Positions 43,612-44,650 of a stretch of DNA of 64,000 bases are shown in pieces. A program made the translations under genes and the position numbers. Source of the stretch: Candidatus Zixiibacteriota bacterium (lineage in GTDB: Bacteria > Zixibacteria > MSB-5A5 > GN15 > FEB-12); the NCBI GenBank assembly GCA_034003725.1, contig JAVEYB010000001.1, positions 228,416-292,415 of the forward strand, in the 5' to 3' direction. Numbering within the stretch: position 1 is the first letter of the stretch; each line of letters opens with the position of its first letter. The notes beneath the pieces were generated by a model. It did no database searches and was not told where the DNA came from. It worked only from the letters and a program-made list of their open reading frames with translations.

Positions 43612-44274
43612 ATGAACGCACGACTCGTATGGCCGGCGGCAGCGCTGGCCACAGCGATGCTTATGGTGAGTTGCACCGGCGATGCCCCGGTCGAAATCGC
43701 CGAGAACCGGCCGGTCGCCTACGTAACGGCCGAGGGCGCCCCGACTGACACGAGCGCCAGCCCCATGCCGTACATGCTGATGGCCGACAGTCAGGTCACC
43801 GTAAACGACCGCTGCCCCGTCCGCAAAGTCCGGCTGAGCCTTCGCCTTCCTGCGCTGTACGTCAACGGGCGGCCGGTCGGGTTCTGCTGAACTCCCTGCC
43901 AGAAGGTCTTCGTGCAAGACCCCGGATTTTATCTGAACCAGCTCGGCGTCAGCGTCCCGTCGTTATTCGATTCGGCGACACCGGCGGTCCTTGATAGCAG
44001 GTTCGCAAGCTTTGTCGACTTCGAAGCGTTCTATTTTGCTTCAGCAGGCGAGAAACAGCGGTTCGACCGGGACATCGTGAAGCACTGCGGCATCGTTACC
44101 GACCCGGTGAGCAAAGAACGCTTCCGACCGACCGAGCAGTCACCGCGCATGGTGTACAACGACCGCACGTACCTGTTTGCTTCGGACTCGACCCACGCAA
44201 CGTTCGCGATGATGCCCGATATGTACTGGCTTCCGAACTACTCGATGTATCCGAAAAGCGACTCAGCGCTGTAG
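43612..44274 (+). CDS. Candidate selenoprotein: lipoprotein with YHS/TRASH-like domains and in-frame TGA (Sec93)
   Basis: Two open segments, 43612-43887 and 43891-44274, share one frame and are split only by TGA at 43888-43890. Read through, they give a 220-aa protein. Residues 1-20 plus Cys21 (MLMVSC) form a lipoprotein signal. Residues ~66-110 follow a metal-binding YHS/TRASH-type pattern: DRCPVRKV, LYVNGRPVGFC, then the TGA, then TPCQKVF and DPGFYL. The TGA falls where homologues of this domain type commonly have the second Cys of a C-C-x-x-C motif. A second, Cys-free YHS-like unit lies at ~162-206 (TDPVSKERF, MVYNDRTYLFAS, MMPDMY). A SECIS-like hairpin follows the TGA. Good Shine-Dalgarno (AAGGA, 8 bases). 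A pseudogene is the main alternative. Confidence 0.72.
43888..43921 (+). promoter_or_regulatory. Candidate bacterial SECIS element downstream of in-frame TGA
   Basis: The stem GGTCTT (43905-43910) pairs perfectly with AAGACC (43916-43921) around a 5-base loop CGTGC. The loop begins 20 bases after the TGA and has G as its second base. These values agree with published bacterial SECIS rules (apical loop roughly 16-37 bases after UGA, G among the first two loop bases). The hairpin is inside the coding sequence, as bacterial SECIS elements are. Confidence 0.65.
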
Positions 44275-44275
44275 G

Positions 44276-44367
44276 TCCGCGTCGCCCACAGCACCGACTG
44301 TCCGCGTCGCCCACAGCACCGACTGTCCGCGTCGCCCATAGCACCGACTGTCCGCGTCGCCCATAGC
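44276..44367. repeat. 25-base tandem repeat, about 3.7 copies
   Basis: The unit TCCGCGTCGCCCACAGCACC-GACTG repeats at 44276, 44301 and 44326, with a partial copy at 44351. The copies differ at one position (CCCACAG or CCCATAG). It begins two bases after the stop codon of the candidate selenoprotein gene. No gene is seen from 44275 to 44686. Confidence 0.92.
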
Positions 44368-44470: not shown

Positions 44471-44620
44471 GCCCCGCCTCGGGCGGGGACGGCAGGGGAA
44501 GATGTTACAGGACTTGTGGCCCACCTAAAGTCCCCGCCTCGGGCGGGGATGGCAGATGGGAATGTTACAGAACTTGTGGCCCACCTAAAGTCCCCGCCTC
44601 GGGCGGGGACGGCAGGTGGG
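44471..44620. repeat. 60-base tandem repeat with GC-rich palindrome
   Basis: The block CCCCGCCTCGGGCGGGGA occurs at 44472, 44532 and 44592, an exact 60-base period. It is followed each time by a related GGCAGG/ATGG and then, in the first two units, by TGTTACAG-ACTTGTGG-CCCACC. The GC block is a hairpin (CCCGCC-TCG-GGCGGG). One more copy of the GC block with its GACGGCAGGTGGG tail stands alone at 45608-45635. Confidence 0.9.
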
Positions 44621-44650
44621 ATTGCAGATGTTCCGTCAGATGCTTGGCCG

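Follow-up and report, generated by a model that had tools for sequence, protein, structure and literature searches.

A UGA-interrupted gene for a predicted lipoprotein

The window analysed here, a stretch of 64,000 nucleotides from a Candidatus Zixiibacteriota genome, carries on its forward strand a frame (43612-44274, +) with a single in-frame TGA, located within GFC-TGA-TPC at residue 93 (43888-43890, +). Under translation table 11 the frame begins as an ORF of 92 aa ending at 43890, and past the TGA it remains open for 127 more codons, to a TAG at 44272-44274, within which a GTG-started ORF of 120 aa is called. Based on the sequence and on 29 family members, all of which have TGA at this codon (Cys: 0/29), the gene very likely encodes one selenoprotein of 220 aa with the UGA read through as selenocysteine (Sec93; probability approximately 0.95), although this is inferred from sequence alone and there is no protein-level evidence. 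The claim rests on a UGA shared by all members, a covarying SECIS hairpin, the Sec genes of the host, and purifying selection past the UGA. Selection on the post-UGA sequence is shown by dN/dS values of about 0.10-0.32 in the eight pairs compared (approximately 0.16, 0.17, 0.15, 0.10, 0.24, 0.32, 0.23, and 0.29). A sequence-only reading of the locus had placed a lone TGA in this motif, frame, and residue, and had proposed that coding character continues for 127 codons beyond it; the first claim held exactly, and the second was also upheld.

The N-terminus (43612-43674, +) is a predicted signal peptide with a lipobox-like MVSC and Cys21, indicating a predicted lipoprotein based on sequence, the AF2 model (in which confidence is low for residues 1-30), and similar N-termini in many homologues. 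By inspection, MVSC departs from the canonical lipobox at -3; better versions (LAAC or LGAC) occur in several homologues, whereas a few homologues have none. The N-terminal lipobox claimed by the sequence-only reading was thus supported only in part.

Family members and their distribution

With the window protein as query, searches of 61 relatives and subsequently of 54 returned orthologues in other genera, at 41%-51% identity and with one TGA each. Used alone as the query in a scan of genome contigs, the window protein gave no match, and an alignment query (A1) against 84,980 species genomes recovered 25 named loci, with TGA at the identical codon in 25/25. The 29 members comprise these loci, the window gene, L014, and two further Planctomycetota members, both also with TGA. 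Hosts include Zixibacteria (Zixiibacteriota), Eisenbacteria, Krumholzibacteriota, Planctomycetota, and Acidobacteria, as well as one Proteobacteria and two Deltaproteobacteria MAGs, and unclassified MAGs. One locus labelled Gemmatimonadetes is nearly identical in sequence to an Eisenbacteria one, and was possibly mislabelled or misbinned. Sequencing error at the TGA was rejected: neither TGC/TGT nor a frameshift was seen at the site, and the 29 separate genomes, all with TGA, here stand in for raw reads.

Among the relatives and 84,980 species genomes searched, there was no full-length homologue carrying Cys at position 93. The search pattern [YF]VN[GH][RKQ]P[LVI]GF likewise returned no Cys forms, and it stops short of the Sec codon and could therefore have picked these up too. 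The homologue alignment by which the sequence-only reading proposed to check the site accordingly yielded in-frame TGA in 29/29 and no full-length form with Cys93, so that the Cys/Sec pair test is satisfied by distant domain paralogues only.

A covarying hairpin downstream of the UGA

Covariation and per-sequence folds identified a hairpin (43905-43921, +) with the core GGUCUU-CGUGC-AAGACC (6 bp, 5-nt loop), which begins 14 nt past the UGA and has its loop 20 nt from it. In alignment A3 (27 members, gap-free downstream of the UGA; hairpin columns 24-29/35-40), 161/162 core cells are paired, and the loop sequence CGUGC is present in nearly all members. Pair types are GC 18/CG 9, GC 21/AU 5 (one AC), and UA 22/CG 5 for the first three pairs, and CG 26/UA 1, UA 19/UG 8, and UA 27 for the last three. 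The covariation score was 0.39, compared with 0.21 ± 0.019 for shuffles (reached in 0/500) and 0.03-0.12 for slid controls. Over the 8 pairs counted, 6 had double changes, with 27 cells changed at both positions, against 11.2 for shuffles (0/500) and 1-4 for slid controls. RNAalifold recovered the same hairpin.

The pairing is also reflected in the protein, where residues 99 and 103 are coupled (V/I with D in 22, T with G in 4, and A with S in 1 of the 27 members), which fits a requirement for pairing of GUC-GAC, AUC-GAU, ACC-GGU, and GCU-AGC; one I-D member, L014, has a single A-C mismatch in the hairpin. Shuffles were not corrected for the relatedness of the sequences. On the tree, T/G pairs fall in two separate groups (L034/L046, near the A/S-bearing L035, and L050/L051), and at least two double changes therefore look independent. 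The minimum free energy of the window's downstream RNA, folded as a single sequence, was not exceptional (z +0.51) and is uninformative, so the SECIS case rests on covariation. Compared with the published description of bacterial SECIS elements (PMC1088965), we infer that the hairpin is very likely such an element, at the distance usual for bacteria.

These results bear on the alternative that the UGA is a true stop, ending a 92-residue lipoprotein, with the downstream frame belonging to another gene or to a pseudogene in decay. The two ORFs called under table 11, the second GTG-started and in frame, would fit this explanation. Nonetheless, it is all but excluded: the interruption is always UGA, never UAA/UAG or any other, and falls on a single codon across the 29 members, which span several phyla; dN/dS past the UGA is low; termination would cut the TRASH site ahead of C96, which is invariant in all aligned members; and the UGA is followed by a covarying hairpin.

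Selenocysteine machinery in the host and other carriers

The host genome (3.73 Mb, 99.5% complete) encodes SelA, SelB, SelD, and tRNA-Sec, the genes for which the sequence-only reading had proposed a search. SelA is a full-length match on contig C12, SelB adjoins it (C12:40331-42193; 301 bits against a cut-off of 242), and tRNA-Sec lies ~11 kb away (69 bits; gathering score 47). The host SelD (L072, G000:C13:102559-103482) carries an in-frame TGA where its catalytic residue is encoded (VACAG-U-ASK), and is inferred to be a selenoprotein itself, of a known type and in the same genome. That reading had named as refuting outcomes a lack of Sec machinery, homologues all ending at the TGA, and TGC/TGT or a frameshift at that site, none of which occurred.

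Among the 19 carriers outside Zixibacteria, SelA was found in 17 (16 over the cut-off) and tRNA-Sec in 17. Sixteen had both SelA over the cut-off and tRNA-Sec, and one had tRNA-Sec only; of the remaining two, one had only part of a SelA gene, at the end of a contig, and the other (G139) had neither. Because the carriers are MAGs, absent machinery is weak evidence. All Zixibacteria carriers of the family have SelA (7/7), as do 116/132 Zixibacteria genomes overall (over the cut-off), and Sec use is thus likely to be near universal in this group, meaning that co-occurrence of SelA and the family there carries little weight. As a side observation, one SelA gene in a Zixibacteria MAG (G077:C64:9741-11075) itself contains one in-frame TGA.

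A further alternative is that the UGA is recoded as a residue other than Sec, either as Trp by reassignment or by near-cognate readthrough. UGA reassignment exists in some bacteria. This explanation is also all but excluded, given the SECIS-like hairpin directly after the UGA, the full Sec machinery, Cys as the aligned residue in relatives, and the use of TGA as the true terminal stop in several homologues of the same gene.

Domain architecture and the Cys/Sec site

Modelling of the Cys-for-Sec sequence by AF2 with a 27-row alignment (pLDDT 90.7, pTM 0.82) predicted three tandem beta-beta-alpha-alpha units, each a beta-hairpin followed by two helices. Unit 1 (residues 82-111; 43855-43944, +), supported by AF2 and hhalign, is a YHS/TRASH unit and the sole one with conserved Cys/Sec. 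Unit 2 (residues 132-158; 44005-44085, +), delineated by AF2 and the alignment, is YHS-like without conserved Cys, and unit 3 (residues 179-205; 44146-44226, +) is YHS-like and lies within the Pfam YHS match on the window protein (residues 162-205, E 1.6e-7). PF04945 was matched in 24/27 members. The sequence-only reading had described a second YHS-like unit downstream, which held in part, as two such units follow the Sec unit rather than one.

C68, C92, U93, and C96 are invariant in 27/27 aligned members. In the alignment, C68 (of CPV; 43813-43815, +), C92 (43885-43887, +), and C96 (43897-43899, +), the UxxC partner of Sec93, occupy TRASH ligand positions, and the first ligand position, D/C in other YHS/TRASH domains (PMC4626032), is here a nearly invariant N65 (43804-43806, +). 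The resulting spacing, N65-x2-C68-x23-C92-x3-C96, can be compared with the published ligand pattern D/C-x2-C-x22-C-x3-C (PMC4626032), and the C-x19-23-C-x3-C pattern of the YHS/TRASH fold, with its beta-hairpin and helices, is present in the window protein. A similar ligand pattern is found in the YHS domain of the Mycobacterium phlei adenylyl cyclase (D178, C181, C204, C208), for which a response to Cu is reported, and in ribosomal protein L24e, in which four Cys hold Cd (PMC4626032); unlike the window protein, which is a predicted lipoprotein, both are cytosolic and have no Sec. As the canonical ligand positions correspond to N65, C68, C92, and C96, Sec93 is an extra residue beside the site, and in the AF2 model it is located at the start of helix 94-102.

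Profile comparison by hhalign showed that unit 1 is homologous to Cys-type YHS/TRASH proteins of Zixibacteria (L015-L026), which have a CPV...FCCxxC...DPxxYL unit; the aligned stretches span 51-56 residues, with E 5.2e-10 and 4.7e-9. In these distant paralogues the residue opposite U93 is the second Cys of FCCxxC, in line with the proposal that Sec replaces one Cys of GFCCxxC. The Cys-type proteins differ from the selenoprotein family in having Cys for Sec and other domain plans, including fusion to DUF2231 in some. Six of them (L015, L016, L018, L020, L024, and L025) combine the Cys-type TRASH unit with a DUF2231-like membrane domain, detected by Pfam in L016 and by similarity in the others. 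Sequence and fold searches of the PDB gave no convincing match; Foldseek gave only weak hits, to small ribosomal proteins of the zinc-finger type and to regions of MMO hydroxylase, without any reaching E <= 0.001.

Relationship to described selenoprotein families

The catalogue of 119 prokaryotic selenoprotein families published in 2026 (PMC13188914) has entries for a YHS protein (NF041384, GxU) and for a dual-CXXC small protein (NF041197), and contains no family with this motif and domain plan. NF041384 (YHS domain-containing (seleno)protein) shares a YHS-type domain with the window family, and some of its members have Sec. That the two are the same family is suggested by weak NF041384 matches in 21/27 members (best E 1.2e-5). 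However, this identity is all but excluded, as scores were far below the 70-bit cut-off (14.2 bits for the window protein, 24.6 for L037), with the match made via the C-terminal unit where inspected, and the position of Sec differs. NF041384 has a single domain, with its Sec motif taken to be GGY-U after the YHS unit, whereas the window family has GFCU within unit 1. The Sec of NF041384 (GxU, PMC13188914), which we take to correspond to the Cys that its members have in YGGYCA, does not align with U93; the YGGYC Cys is conserved and is the sole GxC in the sequences examined. In a sample from one phylum, 26/28 NF041384 matches had no in-frame TGA. Two NF041384-family matches with an internal TGA (L090 and L093) were observed in the phylum of the L050 host.

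The NF041197 profile (dual CXXC small (seleno)protein; OS_HP3 / hypothetical protein DW) hits the Cys-type paralogues in their TRASH unit (best E 2.3e-6), which makes a distant relationship to the domain probable. NF041197 differs in representing a small protein of 53 positions with RxU/GxU motifs (PMC13188914), and its profile matched none of five unit-1 fragments (E up to 10) and no full-length member (E up to 0.1). No NCBIfam model reached its cut-off on the family. The claim that no described selenoprotein has this domain plan therefore held within NCBIfam and the 119-family catalogue, and the family is likely new and undescribed in the sources searched, although a description elsewhere is not excluded, since the NCBI protein database and subscription papers were outside the scope. 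The authors of deep-Sep noted that their method may discard selenoproteins lacking Cys homologues (PMC12013277), which would explain why the family was missed.

Proposed mechanism and function

We propose that the gene encodes a predicted envelope lipoprotein of three tandem YHS/TRASH-like units, in which SelB with Sec-tRNA-Sec would decode the codon-93 UGA as selenocysteine, directed by the downstream hairpin. Unit 1 is inferred to be the sole active unit. C68, C92, and C96, with N65 as a fourth, match the known YHS/TRASH metal-ligand pattern, from which alone metal binding is inferred, and Sec93, beside C92 at the helix start, would add a strong soft-metal ligand or a selenol nucleophile next to the site. 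Gene-neighbour clustering found no neighbours conserved beyond close relatives, leaving domain type as the only basis for inferring function. The leading candidate role is to bind a soft metal, Cu(I) or Hg(II) for example, on the outside of the cell or to deliver it there, but in the absence of binding data we consider this inference as apt to fail as to hold, and U93 is not among the four canonical ligand positions.

The main functional alternative, held less likely, is that of a selenoprotein whose Sec serves redox catalysis, through U93-x-x-C96 or a C92-U93 selenosulfide, instead of binding metal. With its UxxC at a helix start, the site is similar to thiol-redox active sites, U93 lies outside the canonical ligand positions, and most selenoproteins are thought to have redox functions (PMC13188914). 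Against this, the protein has a YHS/TRASH-like rather than a thioredoxin-like fold, and C68 is invariant too, completing the TRASH Cys pattern. A function other than metal handling or redox appears unlikely.

Returning to the metal-binding role, a bolder interpretation, against which we lean slightly, is that of a multi-phylum, Sec-only family with Sec beside a TRASH metal site, used for soft-metal or metalloid capture at the envelope; if so, pipelines demanding Cys homologues would miss the family. The family adds a multi-phylum group to the bacterial selenoproteome and a new Sec context beside a TRASH/YHS metal site, and since there is apparently no Cys version, Sec seems essential at that position. 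Annotation under table 11 would present each such gene as a pair of broken fragments. The family also makes it testable whether Sec can be a metal ligand in an extracytoplasmic protein.

Repeats downstream of the gene

Two repeats were observed downstream of the selenoprotein gene in the window. A 25-bp tandem repeat (44275-44367; 3.7 copies, 98% matches) begins at the base directly following the stop codon, and a 60-bp repeat (44472-44621; 2.5 copies) with CCCCGCCTCGGGCGGGG palindromes may represent an intergenic repeat element.
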